40,250 nucleotides of DNA from Planctomycetota bacterium (GTDB lineage: Bacteria > Planctomycetota > UBA1135 > GCA-002686595), in assembly GCA_004357655.1 (NCBI GenBank), contig SMVQ01000133.1, positions 1-40,250 of the forward strand, given 5' to 3'. Positions 6,411-36,047 of this stretch are shown piece after piece (within the stretch, counting starts at the first letter, position 1; every line of letters begins with the position of its first letter). Position numbers and translations under genes: made by a program. Below the pieces are notes generated by a model. That model saw nothing but the letters and a program-made list of their open reading frames with translations, ran no database searches and had not been told where the DNA came from.

Positions 6411-6418
6411 GGTGGAAC

Positions 6419-14086: not shown

Positions 14087-15154
14087 CTAGGGGAGCAGAC
14101 TGCGCAACTTCTCGAGCGTGTCGCGCGCGGCTCCGCTATCCAACGACTCTATCGCCGCGTCCACTCCCTCGGCGAGGGTCAAGCAGCGACCGGATACCTT
14201 GAGGATCAGGGCTGCGCCGAGGAGAGCGGCATTCCGCGCCGGGCCGGATTCCCCCGCGAGCACCGCCCGCGTCATGTCCCCCGAGGCCTGCACGAGAGCG
14301 GGGTTGTCCGCGGTTCCATAGCCGTCTTCGGGCGGACCGAAGAGCGGCAGCTCGGGCTCCTCGTGGCAATTGAGTCCGAAGTCCTCGGGCTCGACCGTCA
14401 AGGGCACCAGGTGCCGATCGGCAATCTCGATGCCCCGCGTCCGTTTGCGAAGGGAGGGGATGACGCCGCCGTCGAGGCCCTGGATCGCGATTCCGGTGGG
14501 ATGTCCGAGGCCCTGGATGACCTCGACCGCGGTCCCGAGCACCGGGCCCGCCTGTGCGCCCATCACGACGGACGCACTCGAAGGCGCGAGCAGCTTCTCG
14601 ACCGTGGACAGGGGCGTTCGGACCACGATGTCACCCCTCACGCGCCGGAGAGCGATGATCGCAGGCAGCATCCCGGAGATCGAGATGGCGGCGAAGCGCC
14701 CGCGCGCTACCCAATCCTCCGCCTCCGTGGGGTCCCACGTCATGGAGAGCCCGAGCGACTCGAGCACACTGGCCGACGTGAGCCCGCGTCGCGGCGGAAC
14801 GCAACGGTCCGAGATGATGAGAACGCGCGTACCCGCGCCCGCCGCGATCAGACCGGCGGCGACCTCGAGCGGCGGATAGCGGTCGTGGCCGTCGTGCGGG
14901 GGACAGACACAGACGAGGCCGGACATGCCCTGGCAGGGTATCCGCGCCTGGGCGCGGACCGCCTGGGCGAAACCCATGAGCTCCTCGACGGTCACGCCCT
15001 TCCACCGGAGGGTGACGAGGAAAGCGCCGACGAGCACATCGCTCTCGTCTCCAGAGATCACCGCGGTGAAAGCCTGGAACGCTTCTTCGCGCGTGAGGCT
15101 TCGCATCTCCCTGGGATCCGAACCCATAACGCGCATCAGACTTCGGAGTTCCAT
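14087..15154 (-). CDS. TrpD2/YbiB-like protein of the anthranilate phosphoribosyltransferase fold
   Basis: The 355-residue protein has the glycosyltransferase family 3 architecture: an N-terminal helical domain (SLTREEAFQAFTAVISGDESDVLVGAFLVTLRWKGVTVEELMGFAQAVRAQA) and a C-terminal alpha/beta domain. The PRPP-binding GTGGDG motif of true anthranilate phosphoribosyltransferases is absent; in its place stands CPPHDGHDRYPPLEVAAGLIAAG, close to the pattern of the TrpD2 (YbiB) group, which in E. coli binds nucleic acid and has no TrpD activity. RGLTSASVLESLGL also fits that group. A tryptophan-biosynthetic role is unlikely, and no other trp gene is nearby. The ATG before ELRSLMRVMG is chosen; the frame extends upstream into the 15203 element, where translation would start inside its inverted repeat, which I consider spurious. 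Confidence 0.86.
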   Translation of the reverse strand: MELRSLMRVMGSDPREMRSLTREEAFQAFTAVISGDESDVLVGAFLVTLRWKGVTVEELMGFAQAVRAQARIPCQGMSGLVCVCPPHDGHDRYPPLEVAAGLIAAGAGTRVLIISDRCVPPRRGLTSASVLESLGLSMTWDPTEAEDWVARGRFAAISISGMLPAIIALRRVRGDIVVRTPLSTVEKLLAPSSASVVMGAQAGPVLGTAVEVIQGLGHPTGIAIQGLDGGVIPSLRKRTRGIEIADRHLVPLTVEPEDFGLNCHEEPELPLFGPPEDGYGTADNPALVQASGDMTRAVLAGESGPARNAALLGAALILKVSGRCLTLAEGVDAAIESLDSGAARDTLEKLRSLLP

Positions 15155-15202
15155 GAATCGCGCGCCTCGGCCTCGAGACCTCCTCTGGCGCTCGCCAGAG
15201 TC

Positions 15203-15422
15203 TAAGGGCCCGTCCGAGAACAAGTGTCACGTTTCGGCGAGCCCTCGTCGTTCCTGGCAAGACGCTTTGTTTCGTATGCGCTGGATACTCGGAGGGTAAG
15301 CCCCGGTCTGCCGAAGGCGGATCGAGACGACCCCTTTGGGTCGTCTCGAAGGGGACCCCGCAACGCAGCCAGGGGCGACGAGGGCCGGCGAAACGTGACA
15401 CTTGTTCTCGGACGGGCCCTTA
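15203..15422 (+). mobile_element. Complete foldback element A (MITE-like, 220 bp, TA-flanked)
   Basis: The outer 34 bp, beginning TAAGGGCCCGTCCG, are perfectly inverted at the other end; including a few mismatches, the arms pair over about 56 bp. Both ends carry TA, as expected for TA target duplications of Tc1/mariner-IS630-type elements. The centre holds a three-stem core (see 15294-15358). There is no ORF able to encode a transposase, so it would need one in trans. It lies 65 nt past the stop of the ten-gene amidohydrolase operon and upstream of the TrpD2-like gene. A separate 8-bp hairpin (15183-15190/15193-15200) sits beside its left end. Confidence 0.78.
15294..15358 (+). other. Three-way-junction-like core of element A
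   Basis: On the + strand, P1 pairs GGGT 15294-15297 with ACCC 15355-15358 and CCCC 15301-15304 with GGGG 15351-15354. P2 pairs TCTGCC 15307-15312 with GGCGGA 15316-15321. P3 is a perfect 12-bp stem, 15322-15333 with 15338-15349. The element at 32825 can form the same arrangement with different paired bases in P2 and P3. This could be an RNA structure or a cruciform; no transcript is known. Confidence 0.4.
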
Positions 15423-15487
15423 GCCAGCGGGGAGGTGTGGGTCATCCGAACGGTACTATCGCGGAGGCACGTCGCCAGATCCGGCTC

Positions 15488-16843
15488 TCAATCCTCGGAA
15501 TCGTCGGGATCACCCGCGGCCTCCGCGGGCTCCTCGACCGCCGTCTCCCCCGCGTCGACCTTGGTCTCCGGTGCGAGCGCGCTCTCGGGCCGCGGTCGGA
15601 TGTGCGCGAAGAACAGCTCGTCAGCCTTGTCGTAGACGATCTTTCCGTCCACCACGGCCCACTGTACGAACGTCTGATAATGGAGGACGTCGCCGTCCGC
15701 GACGATCAGATCGCAGTCCTTACCGACCTCGAGCGTCCCGATGCGGTGGGACAGCCCCATCATCCGCGCCGGGACGATCGTGATGGCCGCGAACGCCGCG
15801 GACTCCGGCAGTCCGCCGCGCACGGCGAACCCCGCCTCGATCGGCAGGTGGATGATGTCGCGACCCACGATGCCGCCGAGGTCGATGCGCGTGGTCCCGG
15901 GCACGATCGCCACCTGGACGCCCGCCCGATGGAGGATCGCGGCGTTCTCGATGCTCGAGCCCGCATCGTGCGTCAGCTTCTCGTCCTTCGTCCGGCGGCT
16001 GCGCGGCGTCACGATCGCGTAGGCCCCGGCGCGGCCAAGCTCGTCGGCCACGGTCCAGCCCTCCGCGCAGCCCTCGATGACGGGCCGGAAACCGTAGCGC
16101 GTGGCGAGCCTCGCGATCTCGAGCAGATCCGTGCGCTCGTTCGCCCGGAACTTCGCCCTGACTTCGCCCCGCAGGACCTTCAGGGTCGCGGAGTCCGACG
16201 GCTTCTTGGGTGCCTTCAGCTCCTTGTCCTTCTTGACGTCCTTCTCCCACTGCCGGTAGGCCCGGATGTACTCCGCCGCCGCGTCGAACTTCTCCCGCAG
16301 CGTGCGCTTGCCGCGCGGGTCGCCCTTCGAGTACGTCAAGGACACGAAGACCTCGGAGCTCGCGACGACGTCCGTGACCTCGCCGCGCTTGAGCTTGCCG
16401 GCCTGGTTGCCTTGGACAGCCGTGGTGATGCCGCTCGCGAGCGCGAGCACCATCGATCGCCCGTAGGGGTCGACGGTGTTCTCCAGGTCGGACGTCCCTC
16501 CGAAGAGCCCGCTCGACGAGATGGCGACGAGGCCGGGGTACGCGCGCATCCCGCCGGCGTCGAGCACCTCCGCGTCGTCCGGCACGTGCAGGTCGTACCC
16601 GATCTCTTCGATGCGGCCGTTCTTGGCGAGGATGCTCGCCCCACGCAGGATCGACCCGGTCCCCGTGTGGACCTCGGCGTTGAGCAGAGCGAACCACTCG
16701 TCCGCGTCTTCGTCCTCCTCGCCTTCCTTGCCGCCCTCGGCCTGCTTGTCCTTGTCGTCTTCATCGTCCGCGAACCGGATGGCGCCGAAGCTCGGAGCCA
16801 TCACGAGCATGGCGAAGACCGCCGCAAGTCCCGTCTTGTTCAC
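15488..16843 (-). CDS. Secreted amidohydrolase-family protein without the HxH metal motif (10th and last gene of operon)
   Basis: The product of 451 residues has a signal peptide (GLAAVFAMLVMAPSFG), then an acidic low-complexity stretch (about 26-49) and an amidohydrolase-superfamily beta-sandwich/TIM-barrel body. Where family members have PG-[LIMF]-[IV]-D-x-HxH it reads PGLVAISSSG, so both first-strand metal histidines are serines (109, 111). The closing DRxGxLxxGKDxDL motif is kept as HRIGTLEVGKDCDLIVADG. It is probably a non-catalytic homologue or has changed chemistry. The GTG start is chosen for the signal peptide and its 11-nt spacing from the upstream stop. The C-terminus is Glu/Asp/Ala-rich. 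The element at 15203 follows the stop and may mark the operon end. Confidence 0.88.
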   Translation of the reverse strand: MNKTGLAAVFAMLVMAPSFGAIRFADDEDDKDKQAEGGKEGEEDEDADEWFALLNAEVHTGTGSILRGASILAKNGRIEEIGYDLHVPDDAEVLDAGGMRAYPGLVAISSSGLFGGTSDLENTVDPYGRSMVLALASGITTAVQGNQAGKLKRGEVTDVVASSEVFVSLTYSKGDPRGKRTLREKFDAAAEYIRAYRQWEKDVKKDKELKAPKKPSDSATLKVLRGEVRAKFRANERTDLLEIARLATRYGFRPVIEGCAEGWTVADELGRAGAYAIVTPRSRRTKDEKLTHDAGSSIENAAILHRAGVQVAIVPGTTRIDLGGIVGRDIIHLPIEAGFAVRGGLPESAAFAAITIVPARMMGLSHRIGTLEVGKDCDLIVADGDVLHYQTFVQWAVVDGKIVYDKADELFFAHIRPRPESALAPETKVDAGETAVEEPAEAAGDPDDSED

Positions 16844-16854
16844 TCGGAGATCTC

Positions 16855-18204
16855 TCACAGGTTCACCTCTCCATACTCGAACTTGCCGCCGATCATCACG
16901 GCCTCGACTTTCGTACCGGGCTCGAAAGGATCGCCGTTCAGGAAGATCAGGTTCGCGTCCTTGCCGGCCTCCAGGCTGCCGAACCGCTCGCCCAACCCGA
17001 GCAGGTCCGCGGGCTCCTGGGTCAGCGCACGCAGCGCGACGTCGCGATCCAGACCCGCCGCCACGATCTCCCCGACGTTGCGCAGCCACGACCCGTAGGC
17101 GGTCGAGGAGTCGGAGCGCGGGATGAGCACGATCTTGGCGCCGGCGCGGGCAAACTCGGCGGGCAGGTTGCGCTGCCGCATGGTGCCCGGGTGCAGGGTC
17201 AGCGTCGGTTCGACGACGACCCGTCGGCCGCTCGCCCCGATCTTGTCCTTCACGTGGAAGATGTCCGAGTTCCGGGTGAGACCGACCCGCAGGTCCCAAT
17301 CGAACTCCTCGTCACCGATCGCGTCCAGGAGGTGCTCGTATTGCGCCGCGCTCGAGATGCTGACGAGCGCGCGCAGCGTCTTGGCCCGGAGGTCGAGGAA
17401 GGCCTGCGCCTCCGCGTCGGGAACGAGGGGGACGTACTCGTCGTCGTCCTCGGCCTTTTTCTCGTCGTCGCCCTTCTTCTTCTCGTCGTCTTTCTTCTCG
17501 TCGTCGTCGCCCTTCTCCTCGTCGCCCTTCTCCTCGTCGTCCTTCTTCTCGTCGTCCTTGTCCTTGTCTTTCTTGGAGGAGCTCTTCTTTTTCTTCTTCT
17601 TCTTCTTCTCCTGCGCCTTCTCCCACTTCTCGCGGTTCTTCCGCTCCTTCTCGAGGAACTTGTCCGCCTCCTTGAAGCCGTCCTTGATCATCTTCTTGGA
17701 CGACCCGGTCGCGCGCAGGATGATCTTCAGATAGACATTGTCCGCGAGGGTCATCTCAGCCTTCGTCGCGCCGATCGGCTGCACGGCGACCGCCTGGCCG
17801 GGGATCCCGTTGCCGGCCGGATACTGGCCGAGCGTCGTGACGCCGTTCTCGAGCGCAGCCTCGTAAGACGTTCCGGGCCATAGCTCGGTCGACGCGAGGA
17901 CGCCCGGCTTGGAGTCGTTGTAGCCCTGGCTGGTCATCCCGAGCCGCGTGTACGCGTTCACGAGCCCGGGCATCACGACCCAGGTGTCCGGCAGGTCGAG
18001 GATCGGGATCCCGCGTTCGATTGGCAGATCTTCTCCAATCGTGACGATCTTGCCGTCTTCCACGAGGATGACGGCGTGCTCGTAGGTCCCGTTCGCGATC
18101 GTCTCCGCGCGCCGGACCCGGATGGCCAGGAGGTCGCCTTTCGGCGTCGGTACGGCCGTCGCCGCGGGTGCAGCCGCGGCCAGGATCAAGGTGGTCAGCA
18201 TCAT
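16855..18204 (-). CDS. Secreted amidohydrolase-family pseudoenzyme with a poly-Lys/Asp/Glu insert (9th gene of operon)
   Basis: The 449-residue protein opens with a signal peptide (MMLTTLILAAAAPAATA). The HxH site is PGLVNAYTRLG, giving Tyr85 and Arg87 in place of histidines, so a metal centre of the usual type is unlikely. Residues about 187-256 are an extreme charged insert: a run of seven or more lysines, then alternating KDD, EEK and GDDEKK units, encoded by GAA/AAG/GAC-type microsatellite DNA (about 17430-17640). The barrel resumes afterwards and ends with ERFGSLEAGKDANLIFLNGDPFEPG. The insert replaces an external loop of the barrel and would be highly exposed. ATG-ATG doublet; the first is chosen. 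The upstream gene ends 25 nt earlier. Confidence 0.88.
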   Translation of the reverse strand: MMLTTLILAAAAPAATAVPTPKGDLLAIRVRRAETIANGTYEHAVILVEDGKIVTIGEDLPIERGIPILDLPDTWVVMPGLVNAYTRLGMTSQGYNDSKPGVLASTELWPGTSYEAALENGVTTLGQYPAGNGIPGQAVAVQPIGATKAEMTLADNVYLKIILRATGSSKKMIKDGFKEADKFLEKERKNREKWEKAQEKKKKKKKKSSSKKDKDKDDEKKDDEEKGDEEKGDDDEKKDDEKKKGDDEKKAEDDDEYVPLVPDAEAQAFLDLRAKTLRALVSISSAAQYEHLLDAIGDEEFDWDLRVGLTRNSDIFHVKDKIGASGRRVVVEPTLTLHPGTMRQRNLPAEFARAGAKIVLIPRSDSSTAYGSWLRNVGEIVAAGLDRDVALRALTQEPADLLGLGERFGSLEAGKDANLIFLNGDPFEPGTKVEAVMIGGKFEYGEVNL

Positions 18205-18229
18205 GACTCTTCGCTCTCGCCCATCGCCT

Positions 18230-19459
18230 CTAGAACCATTGTCCGTCACGCCTGTCGTATTGGATCACGCCGTCGATCAGGACGAGCTCGACGGCACCTC
18301 GGGGGTCCATCGGGTCGCCCCTGCGGATGACGATGTCGGCGTCTTTTCCCGGCTCCAGGCTGCCGACGCGGTCGTCGATTCCGAACGTCTTCGCCGGGTT
18401 GATCGTGAGGGCGCGCAGCATCTCGTAGGGATCGCCACCGTAACGGGCGGCCATGGCGCCCTGCAGAAAGAACTGCTCCTCGGCCACGACGCCCGAGTCG
18501 GTGTTGAGCGAGAAGTCACGCCCGACGGCCTTCGCGTACTCGGCGGCGGAGCCGTTGATCCGGCCGTTGCGGCTCGAGAACCAGTCCATCGTGCGCGGAC
18601 CGTGGTTGACGGGGATCCCGTAGCGCGCGACCGCCTCGGCCACCTTCCAGCCGTCGAAGCTGCCGTGCGAGAGGACGCTCCGCGTGTCATAGGTCTCGCG
18701 CCACATGCGCGCCGTGTTGACGGCGCCGTCACTGCCCGCCGTGTGGATGAGGACGGGCAATTCCTTCGTGTGGACGCGCTTCAGGTCCTCGAGTGCGAGG
18801 TCGAATCGACCCTGCTCCAGGGCTGCCACGGCGCGGTCGTTCACGTCCGTGAGGTTCCACGCCTGTCCCGCGCGCGACACACCGAAATCGGTCGCGTTGC
18901 GTCGATGGGGGTTCGAGTCCTGGGCGACCTTGAGCCCGCCCGGATCGGCGATGACGACCCCGTCGTACGTGCTATCCGTCTTCGTCTTGTACAGGACGCC
19001 GAAGCCGCCCATGTTCGTTCCGCTCCCCGGGATACCGAAGAGCGTCGTGATCCCGCTCGCGCACGCGAGGTCGATCCGGGGATTGCCCGGCTGCAGGCAC
19101 GCGGACACACGGAGCTCGGGGTTGACGGCGCGCACCATGTCGTTGATGTCGCGCCCGCCGCCCATGATGTGCGTGTGCAGGTCGACCATGCCCGGTATCG
19201 CCCATGCGTCCGGGTACTCGAGCACGCGGTACCCGCGGGGAGCCCCCGCGGGCCCGCCGACGTACACGATCTTCCCGTCCTCGATGACGATCACGCCCGG
19301 CTGGTGGATGCTGTCCTCGTCGTCCATCGTGACGAGCTTGCCCACGTGGATCGCCAGACCCTCCGGTAGCATCGCATCGCGCGGCTCATCGTCCGCGAAA
19401 CCCCGGGCGGGGAGCGACGCGAGCAGCGCGGTGAGAACGAGCGGGCGGAGCGCGATCAC
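18230..19459 (-). CDS. Secreted metal-dependent amidohydrolase, motif intact (8th gene of operon)
   Basis: The 409-residue protein has a signal peptide (LRPLVLTALLASLPARGFA) and an intact imidazolonepropionase-like site: HTH (His95, His97) in PGMVDLHTHIMGGG, His239 in PVLIHTAGS, His265 in VLSHGSFDG, and Asp321 in SLNTDSG. This matches a metal-dependent hydrolase acting on cyclic or linear amide or C-N bonds; the substrate is unknown. The IPGSGTNMGG loop is shared with the next two genes of the operon, so these three form a subfamily. The GTG start overlaps the TGA of the upstream gene by 4 nt (GTGA), showing translational coupling. Confidence 0.9.
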   Translation of the reverse strand: MIALRPLVLTALLASLPARGFADDEPRDAMLPEGLAIHVGKLVTMDDEDSIHQPGVIVIEDGKIVYVGGPAGAPRGYRVLEYPDAWAIPGMVDLHTHIMGGGRDINDMVRAVNPELRVSACLQPGNPRIDLACASGITTLFGIPGSGTNMGGFGVLYKTKTDSTYDGVVIADPGGLKVAQDSNPHRRNATDFGVSRAGQAWNLTDVNDRAVAALEQGRFDLALEDLKRVHTKELPVLIHTAGSDGAVNTARMWRETYDTRSVLSHGSFDGWKVAEAVARYGIPVNHGPRTMDWFSSRNGRINGSAAEYAKAVGRDFSLNTDSGVVAEEQFFLQGAMAARYGGDPYEMLRALTINPAKTFGIDDRVGSLEPGKDADIVIRRGDPMDPRGAVELVLIDGVIQYDRRDGQWF

Positions 19460-20742
19460 CAGCGCCTCCTCTCCGAGCGCGTGTCGTACACCGAACGCCC
19501 GCCGATGTAGACGCGCTCCACGCGACTGCGGGGGTCGCACGGATCGCCCGTGATCACGACGATGTCCGCGTCCTTCCCCTGCTCGAGGCTGCCGACGCGG
19601 TCGGCGATTCCGGCCGTGACGGCGGGAATGATCGTCACGCCGCGCACGGCCGCCATGCTCGCGTTGTCCATGCCATAGCGCACACCCATCGCGGCCTGGA
19701 GCGGGAGCGCCTGCTGCAGCATGACAGGGGCGTCGGTGTTGAAGCCGATGCGCGAGTGCCCGCGCTGTTGGAAGCCCCACGCCGTCCCATGGACCTGGCC
19801 GTCGGTATCGAAGCGCGGCGGCCGCGGCCACATCACTGCGCGCGGTCCGAGGATCGCCGCGACGCCGACGTCCTCCGCGCGCTCCGCCGTCAGGTAGCTG
19901 TCGAACGACCCGTGATCGATGTACACGTCCAGCCCGAAGTCGATGCGCAGCATCTGGATGGTCATGTACACGAGCTGGTAGTACTGCGTGTGCGTGGAGA
20001 CCTGCGTCCGCTTCGCGTAGAGCTCGCGGAAGATGTCGAGCTGGATGTCACGCTCCGGCTGCGGTCCTTCGCCCTGCTCGAACGCCGCCCAGCGCGCGCC
20101 GTAGGTGAGCCCCCGGCGGAGGATGCTGCGCAACGTGTAGTTCATGAGCAGCCGGCCCATCCCGTACCCCCAGCGCGTGGGGTTGTCGCCCTGGGCGATC
20201 TTGAGCGATCCGGGATCGCGGACGAGCGCCTCCTCGAACGTGTCCACGCCCGTCTTCATGAGGATCCCCTGCCCGCCCATGTTCGTCCCCGAGCCGGGGA
20301 TGAAGAGGATCGTCGTCACGCCGGCCGCGACCGCGGTCTTCAGCAGGGAGTTGTGGGGCACCACCGCGGTCGAGACGCGCAGGCCCGGGTTGGCCTGGAA
20401 GACCATGTCGTTGATGTCGCCGCGCGTGCCGCCGACGTGGCTGTGCAGATCGATCAGCCCCGGCACGAGCCAGGCCTCTCCGACGTCCTCCACGGCGTAG
20501 CCCGGCGGGATCGCGAGCTCGCTCTCCGGCCCGATCCCCTCGATGAGGCCGTCGCGGATGAGCAGCACCGGATGATCGATGAACTGCCGCCCGTCGAGCT
20601 CGGCGGTGAGCGCCTTGCCAGCGATGAGCGCGAGCCCGGAGCCTCCGGGCGCGCCCGGCGCCTGCGCGCCGGCGGCCCCCGCAAGGGATGCCGCCGCGCC
20701 GATCGCGGCCGCGAGCCGGACGGTGTGGAGGAACCGGGTCAT
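19456..20742 (-). CDS. Secreted metal-dependent amidohydrolase, motif intact (7th gene of operon)
   Basis: The product has 428 residues with an Ala-rich signal peptide ending near AGAAGAQA. Metal and catalytic positions are kept: HSH (His100, His102) in PGLIDLHSHVGG, His251 in VSTHTQYYQ, His277 in YIDHGSFDSY and Asp337 in GFNTDAPV. IPGSGTNMGGQGILMKTG and ERDIQLDIFRELYAKRTQ are almost the same as in the upstream gene, so the two are tandem paralogues. A large helical insertion (about 170-250) precedes the VSTHTQ strand. The ATG lies 8 nt after the stop of the upstream gene, with no strong ribosome binding site, consistent with coupled translation. Confidence 0.9.
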   Translation of the reverse strand: MTRFLHTVRLAAAIGAAASLAGAAGAQAPGAPGGSGLALIAGKALTAELDGRQFIDHPVLLIRDGLIEGIGPESELAIPPGYAVEDVGEAWLVPGLIDLHSHVGGTRGDINDMVFQANPGLRVSTAVVPHNSLLKTAVAAGVTTILFIPGSGTNMGGQGILMKTGVDTFEEALVRDPGSLKIAQGDNPTRWGYGMGRLLMNYTLRSILRRGLTYGARWAAFEQGEGPQPERDIQLDIFRELYAKRTQVSTHTQYYQLVYMTIQMLRIDFGLDVYIDHGSFDSYLTAERAEDVGVAAILGPRAVMWPRPPRFDTDGQVHGTAWGFQQRGHSRIGFNTDAPVMLQQALPLQAAMGVRYGMDNASMAAVRGVTIIPAVTAGIADRVGSLEQGKDADIVVITGDPCDPRSRVERVYIGGRSVYDTRSERRRW

Positions 20743-20750
20743 GTCAGCGC

Positions 20751-22040
20751 TCAGAAGCGACGCGTGTCCTCGCTCGTGTCGTACACCTTCCGGCCTTTGA
20801 GGAAGACCAGCTCGACGGAGGTGCGCGGATCACAGGGATCGCCCGTGACCACGATGAGGTCGGCGTCCTTGCCGACCTCGATGCTGCCGAGCCGGTCGTC
20901 GAGCCCCGAGGCTTTCGCGGGCACGATCGTGATCCCACGCACGGCGTCCATCTCCGAATTGTCGAAGCCGTAGCGCACACCCATCGCGGACTGGAGCGAG
21001 AGCTCCTCCTGGCCGATGCCGCCGAAGCCGACACAGTCTGTGTTGAAGCCGACCATCGTGTGGCCGCCCTCCTGATACATCGCGGCCACGCCGTTGATGC
21101 GGCCGTCCGTGTCGATGAACGGCGGCCGGGGGGCCTGCATCTGGCGCGGACCGAGGATCGCCGGGACGCCGATGCGCTCCGCGTGGGCCGCGGCCCGATA
21201 GCCGTCGAACGTGCCGTGGTCGATGTAGACGTCGAGGCCGAACTCCTCGCGCACCATCGTGAGCGTCATGAGCACGACCTGATAGATCTGCGTGTGGGTC
21301 GAGACCTGTGTCTTCTTGGCCAGCAGATCGCGGAAGACGTCGAACTGGATGTCGCGCTCCGGCAGAGGTCCATCGCCGTCTTCGGCCGCCTTCATCCGCG
21401 CCGCGTACGTGAGCCCGCGCCGGAAGGTGTTGCGCGTGTTCCAGTTCATGAAGGAGCGCTGGGGCCGCATGACCCACCGCTCCGGGTTGCCCGCTTGGGC
21501 GAGCTTGAGCGAGCCCGGGTTGCGCAGGAGGTTCTCTTCGTACGTGTCGAAGCCCGTGCGCAGCAGGATCCCCTGGCCGCCCATGTTCGTACCCGAACCC
21601 GGGATCAGGAGCACGCTGGTCACGCCCCCCGCGATCCCGCGATCGAGGGCCCGGTTGCGCGGCGTAACCGTCGGCGACGCGCGCAGGCCCGGGTTCGTCA
21701 GGAAGACCATGTCGTTCAGGTCCCTGATCGAGCCCGCGACGTGGCAGTGCAGATCGATCATGCCCGGCATCAGCCACTGGCGGCCGAGGTCGAGCTCTTC
21801 GTAGCCCTCGGGCACGGTGATGTCCCGACGCGGACCCACGGCTTCGATCTTGCCGTCCTTGACGAGGACGACACCGGTGTCCACGACGGACTGCCCGCCG
21901 TACACCGCGGTCAGGATCTTGCTCGAGTAGATCGCGAGCCCCGGACCGCCTTCCTCCCCAGCGTCCGCGCCGTCGACGGCGGCGAGCGCGGGGCAGGTCC
22001 AGAGCCATGAGAACGCGATGGTTGCGAGTAGCGAACGCAC
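20751..22040 (-). CDS. Secreted metal-dependent amidohydrolase, motif intact (6th gene of operon)
   Basis: This tandem paralogue of the following gene keeps HCH (His98, His100) in PGMIDLHCHVAGS, His249 in VSTHTQIYQ, His275 in YIDHGTFDGY and Asp335 in GFNTDCVGFG. It therefore has the same predicted metal site and probably related substrates. I chose the GTG before RSLLATIAFSWLWTCPALA because this gives a clean 20-residue signal peptide and a length (429) equal to the sister protein. The ATG at 22118 gives a 455-residue form with an odd basic extension, but is closer to the upstream stop and has a GGAGG further upstream, so it remains possible. The gene ends 8 nt before the next start. Confidence 0.9.
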   Translation of the reverse strand: MRSLLATIAFSWLWTCPALAAVDGADAGEEGGPGLAIYSSKILTAVYGGQSVVDTGVVLVKDGKIEAVGPRRDITVPEGYEELDLGRQWLMPGMIDLHCHVAGSIRDLNDMVFLTNPGLRASPTVTPRNRALDRGIAGGVTSVLLIPGSGTNMGGQGILLRTGFDTYEENLLRNPGSLKLAQAGNPERWVMRPQRSFMNWNTRNTFRRGLTYAARMKAAEDGDGPLPERDIQFDVFRDLLAKKTQVSTHTQIYQVVLMTLTMVREEFGLDVYIDHGTFDGYRAAAHAERIGVPAILGPRQMQAPRPPFIDTDGRINGVAAMYQEGGHTMVGFNTDCVGFGGIGQEELSLQSAMGVRYGFDNSEMDAVRGITIVPAKASGLDDRLGSIEVGKDADLIVVTGDPCDPRTSVELVFLKGRKVYDTSEDTRRF

Positions 22041-22144
22041 CTCGAGCGGGGCCTGGCCGCCGCACTCGCCCGCGCGGCGCGCGCCAGGGACCGCGGGGGA
22101 GAAAACTTGACTCAGCATGACAGCGCCACGGGCCCTCCAGGCCG

Positions 22145-24972
22145 CTAGCGAATCTCCTTCCCATCGACCCACACGCGGAGAATGCTCGTCGCGGGATCGA
22201 GCGGGCTGCCGTCGAGCAGGAGCACGTCGGCGTCGAGGCCTCTCGCCAGCCGCCCGACGCGGTCGTCGATCGAGAGCATCCGCGCGGCGTCGGATGTGAG
22301 CGCGCGCAGGGCGTCGTCGGCGCCGAGACCGCGCGAGACCGCGTAGAGCGCCATGATCGGGATGTCCGCGGCGCCCTCCTCGGCGGCGCTGTGGAAGGCG
22401 ATCGGGATGCCGGCGTTCGCGATCTCGGCGTAACGGTTCCGGATCTGCGTGCCCGTGCGCGAGCTGGTCGTCACGACGTTGTGCGTCAGGATCACGCCCG
22501 CGATCCGGTCCCGGATCTGGTCCACGACCTTGTACGCCTCGGTCGCATTGAAGAGCACCGGCTCGATGCCGTACTTCGCGAACTCGTCGACGCACTCGAG
22601 GATCTCGTCCTGGCGTGTCACCGTGACGATCACGGAACCGTGGCCCAGCATCGCCTGGCGCCACGGTTCGAGCTCGGGATTGATGCCGGGGGACTTGGGC
22701 TTGCCTTTCGGTTCCGAGACGGTCTCGGGCTTGCGGCGCTCGGGACGCGCGGCGACCACGTATTCGGTGGAGGTCTGCGTGAGCTCGACGTCCGTCGCCT
22801 CGCCCCCAACCGTCACCTGCCCGGTGAGTTTGTCCTCCGACAATTCGAGCTCCGCGCTGACGACTCCGCGCGACCCAAGCCCTTCGACGCGGATCGTCTG
22901 CTCTTCACGCGTGCCCTCGAGCTCGACGAGATGCTCGGAGAATGCGGCGCAGCGCATGTTCCCCTCGATCGCCCCGTCCTGGTCGTTCAGGCGGAATCGC
23001 AACCGGGCGCCATCGACCTCGCCTTCCCATACGCCGGTGACGGGTCGTGCGGCCTCTTCCTCGCCCTTCTTCTTCTTCTTCTTTTTCTTCTTCTTGCCGT
23101 CGTCGTCCTCGTCGTCGCCCTCTTTTTCGTCGTCCTTCTCGTCCTCGTCCTCCTCCTCGTCTGCGTCCTCCTCGGGCGGAGGCGGCGTCCACGCGGCGAG
23201 CTTCTGCTCGTACTCCGCCCACTTGTCCTTGTACTTCGCAGCCTTCTCGAGCGCCTCGCGCACCTTCTCGCCCGAAGCGGTGCGGATCTTTTGGCTCCAC
23301 TCCACGCGCAGCGCACTCGGGTTCGCGACGATCATGCGTTCGTGGTCGCCCCCGGCGGGCTTGTACGCGATCGTGGGCGAGCCCTTGCCCGGAGAGGAAC
23401 GCGAGCTCAGGAGGACCGTCGTCACGCCGGCTCTCGCCACGCGGCGGTCGACGGCGTCCCCGGGCTCCAGGATGCGCGAGAGGTCGAAGCGCGCCGAGAA
23501 TTTCTTGCTCGAGCCCTCGAGGCCCAGGTGCCCGAGCGCGTCGATCATGCCGGGCATCGCCGCACGACCGCGTACGACCATCGCGCCGGCGGGTCGCGAG
23601 ACGAAACGCCCGACCTCGATGATCCGGCCGTCCTGCATGAGGAGCGCTCCGGGGGAGAGCACCTCGCCGTCGCCGACGTGGAGCTCCTCGACCTCGATCA
23701 CGACGGGAGGGGACGATGCGCCGGAAGCGCCGCCGGCGGACTCCGCATCGTGCGGACTCCATGCGAGCTCGCCATCGATCCACGTCGCGACCACGCTTGT
23801 CGCCCTACCGAGGGGGCCGCCGTTCAAAACGACAAGGTCCGCGTCCTTCCCGGCGGCGATGCTGCCGACACGGTCGGCGACGCCGAGAATGAGCGCCGGT
23901 TCCAGGGTGATCGCGCGGAGTGCGCGCGCCTCGCTGAGGCCGCCGCGCATGGAGATGGCCGCCGCGAACCGCAGGTCTCCGACCGAAGCTGTCGCGGGCG
24001 TCGTGATCGCGAACTCGACGCCCGCAGCGGCGAGCCGCGAGGCCGTGTCGTACTCGGGCCAGCGGTCGTCTTCGCCCTTGCCTGCGTTGCGCCCGGCGCG
24101 TCCGACACTGAGCGGCACGCTGAGAATCACCGGCACGCCGGCCTCCGCGATCGCGTCCGCCACTTCGCCCGCGCCCGCGGCGCCGTCGAGCACGAGGGGC
24201 AGACCCGCCCGTCCAAAGAACTCGAGCAGCGCCAGGATCTCGCTCGGTTCCACGGCGCCCATCCGCCAGCTCGCGCCGGCATCGATGAGCTCGGCGAGCA
24301 CCGGTCCCGCGTACGGCCCGTACTCCTCCTCACCCACTCCGCCGCGCGCGAGCACGAGCAGCTCGTCGAGCGCGACCAGTGCGCCCATCGTCGTGCGCGG
24401 GAGCTGAGGTTGAACGACCCCGAGGCCGACATCGACCGTCGCGGGGATGGGCGGCTCCCAGTACCCGGGCGTTCGCCGCGCCTCGTCGCTGATGCTGCCG
24501 TGCAGTCCGGTGCTCTGCGCCAGGACGCGGGAGCCCTCGCCACCCGTCTTCACGACGGCGCCCTGACCGGCGATCAGGCGCCCCCGCGCGGGCGCGATGT
24601 AGATCGACGTGATGCCGGTCGTGAGCGCGGGGTAGTAGCTCGAGTAGCCGTCGAATTGATCGATCGCCATGAGGCCCGGCTCGGCGGCGCGCTCCGCCGC
24701 GTATGGACTGAAGCCATACCGGCTGTCCGCCGCGACGAACCCGGGGACGATGACCGCACCCGGTCCGTAGTCGACGATGCGCGCGTCGCCGGGGATCGCG
24801 ACGTCCAGACCCACGGCGACCACCCGGCCGTCGCGGATGAGGATCGTCCCGCCCTCCAGCACCTCGTCACCGTCGACGAGGTGGATGGTGCCCGCCTTGA
24901 GCGCGACGGTGTCGGTCGCGAGGGCCGCGGGGGCCGCGAGGACCAAGGGCAGGCTGAAGAGGGCGGCGGAGA

Positions 24973-24976
<4 letters not shown>
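22145..24976 (-). CDS. Secreted tandem double amidohydrolase-domain protein with poly-Lys insert (5th gene of operon)
   Basis: The 943-residue protein contains two complete amidohydrolase-like units after a signal peptide (SAALFSLPLVLAAPAALA). Unit 1 (about 22-410) has PGFVAADSRYG instead of HxH, with both histidines lost. Unit 2 (about 423-943) has PGMIDALGHLG, keeping only His483. Unit 2 is interrupted at about 601-641 by an acidic run and ten lysines, then at about 645-740 by a beta-rich segment (GVWEGEVDGARLRFRLND...) resembling a small inserted barrel. Both units end in the DRVGxxAxGxDAD motif. It looks like a fusion of two neighbouring paralogues, with unit 1 a pseudoenzyme. The ATG overlaps the upstream TGA by 4 nt (ATGA). 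Confidence 0.9.
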
Positions 24977-26531
<1,555 letters not shown>

Positions 26532-26535
<4 letters not shown>

Positions 26536-27746
26536 TGGCGTGGATCGATCACGACGGCTCCGTCCAGGAGCACGCCCGTGATGCGCGACGTGATCTCGAA
26601 CGGCGTCCCGCTCCAGAGGACGAGGTCGGCGTCCTTGCCCACCTCGACGGTGCCCACGCGATCCTCGACCCCGAGCATCCGCGCGGGCTGAAGGGTCACC
26701 GCCGCGAGGGCTTCGTCGAACGTCAAGCCGCCGCGCATGGCGTAGCCGGCCTGGCGCGCGAGCCGTTGCGTGGGATCGGAGGCGCCGTGGCTCGAGAGGG
26801 CGATCGGGACCCCGAGGTCCTGGAGCATCTTGGCGACGTTCCAGGCGATGAACGCGCCGTCGGGTCCCGTGCGTCCATCGGCGTCGAACGGCGGCAGGAT
26901 GATCTTGACGCCCGAGCGCGTGAGCAGCTGCGGCTCCTTCCACGCCTCCGCCGCCGCATCGATGATGAGGTCGATCTCGCCCAGGCCCTCGCGCTGCATC
27001 TCCTCCTTCAAGAAGACGGCCGTGCGGATGTCCTGGGTCGTCCACGCCTGGATCGACAGGGGCACCCGACCGGCGAGCACGGCTTGCAGCACGTCGCTGC
27101 CCGGGAACGCCCGCTCGGGGATGCGCGCCGCGGCGGAGGCGTCGTAGAACGCCTTGCGCCACTCCCACTCGACGCCCATGCGCGTCGTGGGGCGGCGCGA
27201 GTAGAAGTCGCTGGGGCGGCCGCGCGCGGGGTGGTTGCCCCGGCTCGGCTCGCCGCCGATCGCGCCCCGCACGACCGCGTCCGCCTTCACGGTCCGCGCG
27301 GCGATCGAAGGCTCGCCGCCCATCTTCAGCACGACGCCGAAACCACCGATCACGTTGCGATCCTCGGGGCAGACCAGCCCCGTCGTGACGCCGCTCCTGA
27401 GCATCCGCTTCCAACGGTAGTCGAAGGGGTCGAGCGCTTCCGCGACGCGTCGGTGGGGCTGGATCTCGTGCGCATCCTCGACCGAGAAGTTGCCCGTGTG
27501 GATCCGGACGCTCGCGTCGATCATGCCCGCCGTCACCGCCACGGCGCGCAGGACGTCGTCGCCGTCCGGGGCCTCGGTGCCGCCCGTGATCGCGGCGATC
27601 TTGCCGTCCTCGACGCGGATGGCCGCGTTCTCGACGACCTCGCCCGTCGAGGTGTAGAGGCGCTCGGCGTAGACCGTGACGCCTTCGTGCACGGAGGGCG
27701 AGCCTGCGAGCGAGAGGAGCGGGCCCGCGAAAAGGAGCAGCATCAT
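26532..27746 (-). CDS. Secreted amidohydrolase-family pseudoenzyme (3rd gene of operon)
   Basis: The 404-residue protein begins with a short signal peptide (MMLLLFAGPLLSLAGS). The site normally holding HxH reads AGMIDASVRIHTG, with Ser79 and Arg81; a histidine lies two residues further on but out of register. GVTTGLVCPEDRNVIGGFGVVLKMGG corresponds to the SGVTTIxxxxG..GGxGxxxK region shared by the whole set, and DRVGTVEVGKDADLVLWSGTPFE ends the barrel. PFDADGRTGPDGAFIAWNVAKML resembles the FDPGDDSRGPKSAVQLAAAG region of the neighbouring gene. The ATG overlaps the upstream TGA by 4 nt. Confidence 0.88.
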
Positions 27747-28849
27747 TCGTCGCCTCCGAACACACGCTTGCCGTCGACGTAGACGGCGACCACGGAGCTG
27801 CCGAGGTCGAGCGGAGGGCCGCTCCACAGGACGAGATCGGCGTCCATCCCGGGCGCCAGACTGCCGATGTAGCCGTCGACGCCCGCGATCGCCGCGGCCC
27901 CGGAGGTCAGGGCGTCCCAGGCTGCGCTCGGCTCGAGCCCCGCGCGCATGCACGCCGCGGCGCCGAGCCGCAGACTGGCCGGGTGGCGCGCCGGCGCATC
28001 GAGGGCGAACCCGAACGGGACGCCCGCGGCAGCGAGCTGTACGGCCGACTTGGGTCCGCGGCTGTCGTCGCCGGGGTCGAACGGAGGCAGGATCACGGCG
28101 AGGTTCGCGGCCTTGATCGCATCCGCAAGCTCGCCCGCGCGCGGCGCGCCGTACAGCGCTCCCACGAGCTTCAGGCGCTTGGCGAACTCGACGGCGCGCT
28201 GGACCTCGTGCCGCGGTCCGACGCGCAGGAGGACGGGCAGCTTGCCCGCCGCGGCGTCGGCGAACGCGCCCTCGGCCTCCTCGAAGCGACGCGTCAGCTC
28301 GGCCACGGCGCCGGCGTAGCTCGTCGGGAACCGCGCTGCGCGCAGCGAGATGGACGATAGCGAAACGTCGAGCTGCGCGCGGCGCTTGACGGCGCGGCCC
28401 GTCGTCTTCACGACCGCCGTGATGCCGCCCACGAGGGCCTGGGGGCCGGGCGCGACGACGATCGAGGTCACGCCTTCACTCGCGAGCCGCGCGAGGTCGG
28501 AGTGCCCCACGTCGAGGGCGAAGACGAGCTGCGCCTCGGCGAGGATGGCGCGCGTGCTGTCGTAGTTCTCTCCGCGCGTGGCCGAGTGATCGTGCAAGGC
28601 GATCATGCCCGCGGAGAGGTCGCCCTCGTGCTCGATCACGGGCACGCCGTCCGGCACGGTCACGTTCGCGCCGGAGGCCGTGATGCGGCCGTCCTCCACG
28701 AGGACCATGCCGTTCTCGACGACCACGCCGCCGCCCAGGTGGACGCGCGCGGCGCGGATCGCGAACGAGTCCGGGGGCGTGACCGCGGCGAGATCGGGTA
28801 CACCGCCGGGCGCGAGGAGGGCCGAGAGGAAGAGTGCCCTTGTGAGCAT
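27743..28849 (-). CDS. Secreted amidohydrolase, HxH kept (2nd gene of operon)
   Basis: This is the shortest member (368 residues), with a signal peptide (LTRALFLSALLAPGGVPDLA). The first-strand motif is intact as HDH (His86, His88) in AGMIALHDHSATRG. Later ligand positions are less clear: the strand that carries His in the three motif-intact relatives reads PVLLRVGPRHEV, and an Asp is kept in FALDAPARHP. Activity is therefore uncertain even though HxH is present. GYIGSLAPGMDADLVLWSGPPLD closes the barrel. It starts 4 nt after the stop of the first operon gene. Confidence 0.87.
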   Translation of the reverse strand: MLTRALFLSALLAPGGVPDLAAVTPPDSFAIRAARVHLGGGVVVENGMVLVEDGRITASGANVTVPDGVPVIEHEGDLSAGMIALHDHSATRGENYDSTRAILAEAQLVFALDVGHSDLARLASEGVTSIVVAPGPQALVGGITAVVKTTGRAVKRRAQLDVSLSSISLRAARFPTSYAGAVAELTRRFEEAEGAFADAAAGKLPVLLRVGPRHEVQRAVEFAKRLKLVGALYGAPRAGELADAIKAANLAVILPPFDPGDDSRGPKSAVQLAAAGVPFGFALDAPARHPASLRLGAAACMRAGLEPSAAWDALTSGAAAIAGVDGYIGSLAPGMDADLVLWSGPPLDLGSSVVAVYVDGKRVFGGDE

Positions 28850-28853
28850 GCGA

Positions 28854-30236
28854 TCAATTCTCCGGAGTGAGAACGACCTCGCCGCCGACGATCACGTAGC
28901 GGACGCGGGAGGTCGAGACGAGGGGCGGGCCGTCGAGGCCGATGAGGTCGGCGAGCTTTCCGCGCTCCACCGATCCGATCCGATCGGCGACGTCGAACGT
29001 GCGCGCCGCGCCTAGCGTGAGCGCCTCGAACGCCGCGGCGCGATCGAGGCCGTGTCCGATCGCGACACCGGCGAGCAAGGGCAGGTCGCGCGACGCCGAG
29101 CTGCCGCCGCTGCCGATCAGGACGCGCACACCGGCGTCCGCGAGCCGTCCCGCGAGCCCGAGGTCGTGGCCCGACAGCTCGTCGGCCCGCGTCGTACCGA
29201 GCGGTGCGGGCCAGACGATGACTGGAATGCGGCGCTCGGCCAGCTCCTCCGCGAAGGCGACGGCTTCCGTCCCTCCCGTGATCACGAGTCGCAGGCGGTC
29301 GAACGGCTCGGTGAGGTCGAGGAGCTCGCGGATCTCGCCCGCGCGGTGGGCCTGCACGACGAGCGGCAACTCGCCGCGCGCGACGCGCGCCATGATCTCC
29401 TTGTCGAGGTCGAACTTGGGCGGCTTGGGCTTCTTGATGTCCTTGTACTTCTTTTCCTTGAACTCCTTGCCCTTCTCCTCGGCCTCCTCGACCTTCTTCG
29501 TGCGGCTCTTCTTGGCCTTCTTGAAGTCCTTCTCGAGCTTCGCCTCCTTCTCGGCGACCTCCACCTTCCATTCGGTGAGCTCGTGCTCGTACTCCGTCAG
29601 GTCTTCCTCGTACTTCCGCCCGGACTCGATCTCGCTGATGAGCTTGTCGATCTCGGAGACGCGGTCGAACACGTCCATCTTGCGGCCGCCGCGCGACAGC
29701 CCGACGGAGGCCGCAACGTTGGCGTCCGCGAGCACGACGACGGCCTCGCGCGAGGTACCCGGAGCGACGTGTACGATCGCGCCGATACCGCCGAACTTGC
29801 TCTTGTCGCCGGCCTGCGTGCGGACGCTCGTCACGCCCGAGCGCAGGGTCTCGAGCCGCAGTCGGTCGTTCGAGAAGACGTCGATCGCATCGACCGTGCG
29901 GGTCGCGATGCCGGTGCGGTCGTCACGGACGGAGGCCGCGTCCACACCCAGCGTCGACCAGGGATCGATGAAGCCGGCGCAGACGACGGCGGCCTCGATC
30001 TCGCGCGCGCCCTCGGGCTTGGCGAGCCCTGTGCCGACCTCGATGATGAGACCGCCCCGCACGATGACCTGCGCGTTGTCGAGGACCTCGCCGGGCTTCA
30101 CGATCAGGCGCCCCGCCTTGATGAAGAGCGTCTCGCCCTCCTGGGCCGTCCCGGGTCGGACGTCGGGCGCGAAAATCGGGCTCGCGGCGGCCCCGGCGGC
30201 GAGGGAGCAGGCCAACCAAGTCGCAAAGAGGCGCAT
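28854..30236 (-). CDS. Secreted amidohydrolase-family pseudoenzyme with a Lys/Glu helical insert (first gene of operon)
   Basis: The 460-residue protein has a signal peptide (MRLFATWLACSLAAGAAASP). Instead of HxH it has AGFIDPWSTLG (Trp93, Thr95), so the metal site is lost. Residues about 192-280 are a Lys/Glu-rich insert with heptad-like spacing (YEEDLTEYEHELTEWKVEVAEKEAKL is part of it), likely a long helix or coiled coil at the same barrel loop where another operon member carries its poly-Lys insert. DRIGSVERGKLADLIGLDGPP closes the barrel. A strong AAGGAGAGAG ribosome binding site precedes the ATG, fitting the first gene of the transcript; a TATGAT lies about 140 nt upstream. Confidence 0.88.
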   Translation of the reverse strand: MRLFATWLACSLAAGAAASPIFAPDVRPGTAQEGETLFIKAGRLIVKPGEVLDNAQVIVRGGLIIEVGTGLAKPEGAREIEAAVVCAGFIDPWSTLGVDAASVRDDRTGIATRTVDAIDVFSNDRLRLETLRSGVTSVRTQAGDKSKFGGIGAIVHVAPGTSREAVVVLADANVAASVGLSRGGRKMDVFDRVSEIDKLISEIESGRKYEEDLTEYEHELTEWKVEVAEKEAKLEKDFKKAKKSRTKKVEEAEEKGKEFKEKKYKDIKKPKPPKFDLDKEIMARVARGELPLVVQAHRAGEIRELLDLTEPFDRLRLVITGGTEAVAFAEELAERRIPVIVWPAPLGTTRADELSGHDLGLAGRLADAGVRVLIGSGGSSASRDLPLLAGVAIGHGLDRAAAFEALTLGAARTFDVADRIGSVERGKLADLIGLDGPPLVSTSRVRYVIVGGEVVLTPEN

Positions 30237-30614
30237 CGCCCTCTCTCCTTAACTTCTGGGCTAGGGGACTGCCTCTCCCGCGTCGGAAGCGGGGTGGACG
30301 GCAAGGGGGCTTGCCCGTGCTGGAGAGGCCTGGACCGACAGGTCCCCCGGAGCCGTGGGAGCCCCGAAGGTGGGGGCATCATAGGTGATTCGCGGTGCCC
30401 CAGAGAAGGATTGCTCGGGCCTTAGCCCTTGCTGCGCGCCTGATTACGGCTGCTTTACACCGGTGTGGCGCGGGCTCCGGCGGACACCGGCCGGCCCGGA
30501 CGAGAGCACCGTGCCGGCCCCGGTGCCCCCCCCCCGACGGTCGCGGAAAATCCCCCCTTTTCGCCGGAAAGAGCGTTCGGCCAGGTGCTCCCGTCGGGCT
30601 TGACTGTCGCAGAT
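30237..30614. other. Intergenic region upstream of the amidohydrolase operon
   Basis: This 378-bp gap carries the leader of the minus-strand operon and the upstream region of a divergent small gene. It contains several short hairpins, including GGCAAG 30300-30305 with CTTGCC 30310-30315 (GGGG loop) and GGACC-GACA-GGTCC near 30332-30346. A ten-base palindrome ACACCGGTGT lies near 30458. Frames crossing it look like shadow ORFs. Confidence 0.5.
30378..30383 (-). promoter_or_regulatory. Candidate -10 box (TATGAT) for the amidohydrolase operon
   Basis: The minus strand reads TATGAT about 140 nt before the first operon ATG, an unusually good -10 in very GC-rich DNA. The -35 side (TTCTCT/TCTCTG at 16-17 bp) is poor, so this is tentative. 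Confidence 0.3.
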
Positions 30615-31100
30615 ATGCAAGTGAAGAGGGCCGTGCATCCACTCCTACTCGAGCCCACATATTGGCGTAATCGACTGCAGGGCATGGGCTTAGTCCGTCA
30701 GTCGCTCCTGATCCTGCCGCGTCCGGACCTGTCCGGCAGAGGGCGGGACATCGTCGAATTCAGGCTGCGCGCGCACGACGGGGTCCGCCTCTGGGGCCTC
30801 CTCGCCCGCTCGGAGTGGCACGGGGGCGACCGGCCGGCCTTCATCCGCGTGGCGGGGCCGACGGAGCGCCCCGAGATCGACCCGGAGACGCTCCAGGAAG
30901 GGTCGGCCGACTTCGTCTTTCAATCACCCGCCGGCCGGCGCCTGGAGGACCGGGTGCTCGACGTCGTGCGGGTGCATCAAGTCGCCCTCGCCACCCAGGG
31001 TATCGACCCGGACCGGGTCACCTTCGCCGCCCCGCGCGGCGGCCGCGAGCCCGATGAGTTCATGATCGCCCGGCAGCTCATCGACGGGCAGTTCTGTTAG
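30615..31100 (+). CDS. Small protein of unknown function
   Basis: The product is 161 residues if translated from the ATG before QVKRAVHPLLLEPTYW; later starts are possible (30684). The segment DIVEFRLRAHDGVRLWGLLARSEW resembles the first strands of alpha/beta-hydrolase or esterase folds, where an AHDG turn leads into the core sheet, but no nucleophile elbow follows and the protein is too short for a full hydrolase. The rest is charged (RLEDRVLDVVRVHQVALATQGIDPDRVTF). There is no signal peptide or membrane helix. It lies 57 nt upstream of the YjbQ-family gene on the same strand. Confidence 0.6.
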   Translation: MQVKRAVHPLLLEPTYWRNRLQGMGLVRQSLLILPRPDLSGRGRDIVEFRLRAHDGVRLWGLLARSEWHGGDRPAFIRVAGPTERPEIDPETLQEGSADFVFQSPAGRRLEDRVLDVVRVHQVALATQGIDPDRVTFAAPRGGREPDEFMIARQLIDGQFC

Positions 31101-31924: not shown

Positions 31925-32806
31925 TTACGCACCGACGATCGCGACGGACGCCGAAGCGCCGATACGCGTCGCGCCGGCGTCGATCATCGCTCTCGCGGTC
32001 TCGACGTCGCGCACGCCGCCCGAGGCCTTGACGCCCAGGCGGGGTCCGACGGTGCGGCGCATCAGGGCGACGTCCGCGATGGTCGCGCCGCCCTTCGAGA
32101 AGCCCGTCGACGTCTTCACGAAGTCCGCGCCGGCTGCTTTCGCGAGCTCGCACGCGCGCACTTTCTCGGCGTCGGTGAGCAGACAGGTCTCGAGGATCGT
32201 CTTGAGCTTCGCGCCGTGGCGGTGACAGACCTCGGCGACGCCGGCGATGTCGCGCTGGACGAAGGCGTCGTCACCCGACTTCAGGGCGCCGATGTGGATC
32301 ACCATGTCGATCTCGCACGCGCCGTCCTCGATCGCGCGGCGCGCTTCGTAGACCTTGACTTCCGACGCCATCGCGCCGAGCGGGAAGCCGATCACGCAGC
32401 ACACGAGCACGTCCGAGCCGTCGAGGATCTCGGCGCAGCGCCGGACCCACGCGCCATTGACGCAGACGGAGGCGAACCGGTGGCGCAACGCTTCGTCGCA
32501 GAGCTCGTCGATCTCCGTGACGGTCGCATCGGGCTTGAGGATCGTGTGGTCGAGGTACTTCGCGAGGCCGCCCAGGGTGCCGGTGTCGGGGTTGCACACA
32601 CCGAGGCGGCAGGCGCCGGCGCGCACCATCTCGTCGACCCGCTCGGGGCACAGTTCCACGGAGATCGAGGTGCAGCCCCATTGACCGAACGTCCCGACTG
32701 CGCCGAGGCCGTGGTCGAGGATCTGGCGCCCGATCTCGGCCAGGACCGCCTCGAGCGTCTCCGCGTCGAACGCGCCGTCATTCGTGTCTATCCGCATCGC
32801 CGGCAT
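31925..32806 (-). CDS. deoC: Deoxyribose-phosphate aldolase with N-terminal extension
   Basis: DeoC cleaves 2-deoxyribose-5-phosphate to glyceraldehyde-3-phosphate and acetaldehyde. The class I aldolase barrel spans about 81-290: [23 protein letters not shown], Asp167 in EIDMVIHIG, the Schiff-base Lys231 in [12 protein letters not shown] and the proton-relay Lys260 in [10 protein letters not shown]. Residues 1-80 precede the usual start of the family (about 220-260 residues) and contain a Cys/Gly-rich part ([23 protein letters not shown]...[15 protein letters not shown]). Similar extensions occur on microcompartment-associated DeoC enzymes, but no shell gene is in the window. The upstream gene (rpiB) is separated by element F, so these may be separate transcripts or one interrupted operon. 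Confidence 0.95.
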
Positions 32807-32824
32807 GGAGCGTGGAGCGCTAGC

Positions 32825-33050
32825 CCAGGTTATTCGTGAAGGAGTGCCCAGAGTGCTTCAACTCAGCTCCTGCCCATATTTTCCGCGTACCGGCCCCGCC
32901 GGCGACCGGTGCCGGTCGTCGAGGGGTGAGCCCCGGTCCCGCGCAGCGGGCTCGGATCGATCCAGTGGATCGATCCGAAGGGGCACCCGGTGCGTGAAGA
33001 GTGCCGGCAGGGGCCGAGTAGGAGCGCTCGGGGTGCTCATCCATGAATCA
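32825..33050 (+). mobile_element. Foldback element F with the same core but different arms
   Basis: The arms (from about 32825 and ending near 33050-33057) pair imperfectly over about 70 bp, for example ATTCGTGAAGGAGTGCCC with the complement of ATGAATCATCC...GGGTGCTC. Their sequence is unrelated to A, C and E, but the centre carries the same core: GGGTGAGCCCCGGTC, a small stem CCCGC-GCA-GCGGG, a perfect 12-bp stem (32952-32963/32967-32978) and CGAAGGGGCACCC. The right end overlaps the rpiB stop codon. Confidence 0.7.
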
Positions 33051-33866: not shown

Positions 33867-33894
33867 TTGCCCTCGTCCCATGCGGGCGGAGAGT

Positions 33895-36029: not shown

Positions 36030-36047
36030 GGCGGGTACGTTACCCGC

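Follow-up and report, generated by a model that had tools for sequence, protein, structure and literature searches.

A fixed-order gene array in Planctomycetota joins a few amidohydrolases with intact metal sites to eight paralogous domains that have lost theirs

Why would a bacterium keep ten paralogous amidohydrolase genes side by side, with no other type of gene among them? The question is raised by a 40,250-nucleotide stretch of planctomycete DNA (contig SMVQ01000133.1 of assembly GCA_004357655.1, positions 1 to 40,250; hereafter the window), whose source is a metagenome-assembled genome (MAG) of 4.45 Mb, 78% complete. The minus strand of the window carries a run of ten consecutive open reading frames (ORFs), at 15488-30236, that encode eleven amidohydrolase-superfamily domains, and an initial annotation had described them as an operon of secreted amidohydrolases, suggestive of a dedicated extracytoplasmic system. 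Each of the ten proteins scores above the Pfam gathering threshold for PF01979, one of them (E) in two stretches, and the ORFs lie at the coordinates which that annotation gave. They are named A to J in the order of transcription, the two domains of E being E1 and E2. Neither a gene of a foreign type nor a transporter gene is interposed between them, as that annotation had held. The reading that we prefer, to which we give about an even chance, is that the genes make up a single operon whose exported products, (beta/alpha)8 barrels of the amidohydrolase superfamily, would assemble into a hetero-oligomer with a few live subunits and eight structural or substrate-handling ones.

28854-30236, minus strand: A, first gene, predicted non-catalytic amidohydrolase-fold subunit with a Lys/Glu-rich helical insert (PF01979, ligand columns)
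27743-28849, minus strand: B, predicted non-catalytic subunit, least degenerate slot (PF01979, ligand columns)
26532-27746, minus strand: C, predicted non-catalytic subunit, ligand columns S-x-R / Q / D / H (PF01979, alignment)
24973-26475, minus strand: D, predicted non-catalytic subunit, start possibly 26535 (PF01979, ligand columns, conservation)
22145-24976, minus strand: E, fused domains E1 and E2, both predicted non-catalytic (PF01979, ligand columns, AlphaFold2 model)
20751-22040, minus strand: F, predicted catalytic amidohydrolase, five of five metal ligands, start possibly 22118 or 22172 (PF01979, alignment)
19456-20742, minus strand: G, predicted catalytic amidohydrolase, five of five metal ligands, nearest structure 3ooq (alignment, AlphaFold2 model)
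18230-19459, minus strand: H, predicted catalytic amidohydrolase, diverged F/G paralogue, five of five ligands (alignment, trees)
16855-18204, minus strand: I, predicted non-catalytic subunit, Y-x-R / S / T / R, with a Lys- and Asp/Glu-rich insert, start possibly 18249 (PF01979, ligand columns)
15488-16843, minus strand: J, last gene, predicted non-catalytic subunit with an acidic N-terminal stretch, start possibly 16858 (PF01979, ligand columns)

The spacing of these genes is close to zero. Three ATGA overlaps (B/C, D/E and, if D starts at 26535, C/D) and one GTGA overlap (G/H) were counted, in agreement with the initial annotation, and the A/B, F/G, H/I and I/J junctions are spaced within approximately 25 nt. 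Start codons are uncertain for D, F, I, and J, and the E/F gap accordingly measures 26 nt with the F start at 22118 or 104 nt with the start at 22040. A ribosome-binding-like site and a space of approximately 230 nt lie upstream of A. Across the array loci, neighbouring genes are an estimated 2 nt apart (median), with 97% of gaps at or below 100 nt, a spacing that would suit an operon read as one transcript.

The live and dead slots of the array are told apart by the metal ligands, scored in a joint alignment as HxH on strand 1, H on each of strands 5 and 6, and D on strand 8. In the window the set is complete in F, G, and H only; none of A, B, C, D, E1, E2, I, and J retains it. The same division holds across 99 loci, where all five ligands are found in 238 of 239 domains of the catalytic slots, against none of the 649 domains of the remaining eight slots. 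Three C-type sequences that carry the full ligand set turned out to be members of non-array pairs. Catalysis appears to be retained, since at least one slot has every metal ligand in essentially every locus. The ligand columns of A read W, T, Q, T, G in place of H, H, H, H, D; the window copy of B keeps HxH and D and has lost both later His residues, three of the five ligands being still present in eight B copies, including this one. At these columns some dead slots carry conserved residues of their own: I has Y-x-R / S / T / R, for example, and C has S-x-R / Q / D / H. The columns show wide variation in B, D, E1, E2, and J. The description of the locus as an array of amidohydrolases thus stands for the fold of all its members and fails for the catalytic class of eight of the eleven domains, which have lost the metal site and are predicted to be superfamily folds outside that class. 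Because these eight make up most of the domains, the array is better regarded as a conserved group made up largely of pseudoenzymes, with a few catalytic members. Each of the ten window proteins also scores far below the cut-off of the NCBIfam equivalogs NF051886 (Xaa-Pro dipeptidase) and hutI (imidazolonepropionase).

The initial annotation had proposed conserved synteny in relatives as a check of its interpretation, and this was sought in full-genome searches of Planctomycetota, from which arrays were fetched and each domain was labelled with per-position hidden Markov models (HMMs). A homologue of G was present in all 12 other genomes sampled from the family and in each of the eight taken from the order's other families, in one case weakly; the order member G014 gave weak matches only. 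The order A-B-C-D-[E1-E2 fused]-F/G (one to four copies)-(H)-I-J recurs in 12 of 12 sampled genomes of the same family, in most of the order, and in many other families of the phylum; its shortest version, seen in distant families, is A B C D E1 E2 F I J and has one catalytic slot. Matches to the profile of the D slot (E<=1e-15) were found in 141 of 294 genomes of the phylum, roughly 53 of them strong, some of the weaker ones being paralogous pairs and not arrays. The array is present in the complete genomes CP036296.1 (Pla86) and CP036434.1 (“Saltatorellus ferox” Poly30). Strict order was observed in 87 of 99 multi-domain loci; the other 12 are mainly in distant families, and their “violations” mostly involve an E2, A, or B slot that was best scored by the HMM of a sister slot. 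E1 and E2 share a single reading frame in more than 90 loci, some of which are the same contig fetched twice. Such co-linear recurrence argues that the array is not due to chance, and lends strong support to the notion of a dedicated extracytoplasmic system. F, H, I, and J, the 3' portion of an array of planctomycete type, were also encountered in a contig titled as a Flavobacteriales MAG, which is probably an error of binning or naming, the alternative being transfer.

A tree of the array domains, also proposed in the initial annotation, places each slot in a clade of its own (support 91-100) when calculated in IQ-TREE with the PMSF mixture model, and the catalytic state is explained in it by a single change. 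In a FastTree analysis with more genomes, A, B, and E2 were not cleanly resolved. Both trees are weak at the deep branches that separate the slots, and the single change must therefore be read with caution. The ratios of nonsynonymous to synonymous substitution (dN/dS) are low in five of six close pairs, where dead genes lie at approximately 0.04-0.15 and live genes at approximately 0.02-0.10, with one E value not computable; the sixth pair (L072/L069) shows higher values, of 0.14-0.37, in all genes alike. Mean identity within the family is 0.57 for D and 0.55 for J, against 0.57 for F/G (best pairs) and 0.56 for H. The dead genes are under purifying selection, like the live ones, and these values, together with intact reading frames, rule out decaying pseudogenes.

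Each of the ten window proteins has an N-terminus resembling an export signal, and among array genes at large, judged by a simple rule of thumb based on hydrophobicity, 95% begin with signal-peptide-like stretches, against 28% of internal control positions. Lipobox-like signals are rare across the array, with the exception of H, and a Pfam scan of the array proteins found no anchoring or repeat domain. Highly charged inserts of 30 residues are present in 88-91% of the copies of A, E2, and I (88% for A), less often in J (40%) and D (21%), and almost never elsewhere; the C-terminal tail of the window copy of D is acidic. AlphaFold2 models were obtained for G (predicted local distance difference test score, pLDDT, of 90) and for E (pLDDT 87, predicted template modelling score, pTM, of 0.66), and the best PDB match of both is Thermotoga 3ooq. 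With PF01979 recognized in the ten proteins and both models matching this structure, the fold is an amidohydrolase-type barrel with a beta-sandwich. The PDB relatives are peptidase-like, including Xaa-Pro dipeptidase and Arg/Lys carboxypeptidase. In the E2 model, a disordered linker rich in Lys, Asp, and Glu is followed by an eight-strand beta domain, inserted in the barrel, for which no Pfam family was recognized:

Window 22148-23700, minus strand: stretch with the predicted E2 beta domain, the latter at E residues ~648-736 (AlphaFold2 model)

The possible origin of the array is suggested by smaller loci. Outside the array, Planctomycetota carry adjacent pairs of such genes in which one member is catalytic and one is dead, and the same rule is followed by two alphaproteobacterial pairs, in Qipengyuania citrea and Novosphingobium pSA1; only a handful of pairs was examined. 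The former adjoins a peptide transporter of the major facilitator superfamily and an FKBP isomerase. The open literature searched yielded no published account of such pairs as live/dead units. Most parsimoniously, the array would have arisen by expansion of an older catalytic/dead pair.

Qipengyuania citrea plasmid (locus L162), 4785-7570: lipobox-bearing catalytic amidohydrolase and a dead paralogue, with an ATGA overlap

Taken as a mechanism, F, G, and H would be the metal-dependent hydrolases of an exported hetero-oligomer, and A, B, C, D, E1-E2, I, and J would be non-catalytic paralogues, each with a fixed structural or substrate-handling role in its slot; the array would be the expansion of a pair of paralogous genes, one catalytic and one dead, of a kind still extant in Planctomycetota and Alphaproteobacteria. 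The complex would be a peptidase or amidase that works outside the cytoplasm, hydrolyzing an amide or peptide-like bond. Amide or peptide hydrolysis is presumably the chemistry of the array because the PDB relatives are peptidase-like and a transporter adjoins one of the pairs. A more ambitious version, in which the products build a large exported machine (about nine to twelve different barrels joined in a heteromeric ring or chain, with one to five live sites and a gene order fixed throughout the phylum), is one that we hold somewhat below even. Several points weigh against the preferred reading. The peptide hint comes from a single pair locus; gene order can persist through co-regulation alone; and the proposed physical association of the subunits is read from indirect genomic evidence. 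In addition, stoichiometry does not seem fixed, since F/G copies range from one to four, H is absent in some lineages, and stand-alone F/G genes exist, and the placement of E1 relative to E2 is uncertain at the pTM of the E model. Assembly is nevertheless better motivated now than it was in the initial annotation.

It is the fixed order, the division into live and dead slots, the invariable E1-E2 fusion, the slot-specific inserts, and the purifying selection that favor a hetero-oligomer over a set of independent paralogous enzymes, in which the “dead” copies would catalyze other reactions without the canonical metal site. The superfamily does include metal-independent or single-metal chemistry, with which the conserved substitutions in slots C and I would be compatible, but the wide variation in the ligand columns of B, D, E1, E2, and J is unlike that of conserved new active sites, and such an arrangement is deemed very unlikely. 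Some of the same substitutions (those of I, for example), together with selection on each slot, would also suit separate exported binding proteins, each holding a different ligand in its emptied barrel and passing it to F, G, H, or an uptake system with no stable complex. Such a scheme would leave the strict gene order, the invariable fusion, and the slot-specific charged inserts unexplained, and the array itself has no transporter gene; we consider it unlikely, but it deserves attention.

The excess of non-catalytic over catalytic domains, the export-like N-termini, and the highly charged inserts could alternatively suggest that the array serves mainly as a cell-surface or envelope scaffold, with barrels as a structural layer and catalytic copies as a secondary element. 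This possibility, which is at odds with the preservation of a complete metal site in nearly all loci, the lack of anchoring or repeat domains in the Pfam scan, and the rarity of lipobox-like signals outside H, appears quite improbable. Finally, recent tandem duplication, with no joint function and an order kept by descent only, would account for a locus in which all genes are paralogues and the F/G copy number is variable. It has to contend, however, with dead genes that keep intact frames and low dN/dS, with D and J being as conserved as the live genes, and with an order that persists between families while the flanks change; in its simple form it is ruled out by slot orthology, fixed order, and dN/dS, and hardly any weight is left to it.

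The surroundings of the array include two further ORFs that recur in related loci:

14087-15223, minus strand: TrpD/YbiB-like gene of phosphoribosyltransferase fold, downstream of the array (below the trpD cut-off)
30465-31100, plus strand: divergent ORF upstream of A (similar ORFs in ~22-24 related loci, same side and strand)

Genes similar to the TrpD-like gene occupy the same place in approximately 51 related loci. They are conserved around the family of the window and were not seen in the distant families checked; a functional link was thus rejected, and the gene probably reflects local synteny. The divergent ORF has no Pfam or NCBIfam match. A functional link to the upstream nucleoside-catabolism genes (31925-38533) is not supported, only the DeoC gene among them being widely shared, in approximately 10 loci. 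The flanking genes change between families and are not conserved beyond the wider group of the window, and the array therefore looks self-contained. Directly 3' of J (15191-15434) lies an element of approximately 200 bp that resembles a miniature inverted-repeat transposable element, with 49-nt terminal inverted repeats that are 88% complementary; it has 92 matches within the same genome, the best full-length copies being 82-96% identical.

We know of no other case of eight pseudoenzymes and a few live paralogues kept in fixed order across a bacterial phylum, which would make this a very unusual type of operon, and text searches of the open PMC literature found no published description of it. 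The array would be a bacterial test case for the conversion of duplicated enzymes into obligate structural subunits, and it may be a main exported hydrolase of uncultured Planctomycetota. It is open to testing, since strains Pla86 and Poly30 carry it.

Among known systems, the closest in fold are the imidazolonepropionase/Xaa-Pro dipeptidase-like amidohydrolases (PDB 3ooq, 3mtw Cc2672, 2qs8, 3n2c), which the modelled domains resemble and whose canonical metal ligands are shared by F, G, and H. The known members of that branch are, however, single-gene enzymes, whereas the array is one conserved putative operon in which eight of eleven domains have no metal site. The Qipengyuania citrea pair, annotated as “amidohydrolase” and “amidohydrolase family protein,” shares with the array the adjacency of live and dead paralogues, near-zero spacing, and putative export signals; the difference is in size, a pair having two genes and the array eight dead slots plus one to five live ones. 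Dead amidohydrolase folds are known to act as assembly partners: the aspartate transcarbamoylase complex of Pseudomonas contains an inactive dihydroorotase, and the CRMP/dihydropyrimidinase-related proteins are a second case. The array is like these in its dead folds, and the CRMPs are remote sequence matches of the D profile, but both are cytoplasmic, single paralogues with no ordered array. The proteasome core and cyanobacterial ClpP/ClpR, in which many inactive paralogues are fixed in position around few active ones, are of an unrelated fold and serve only as an analogy to the assembly proposed here.
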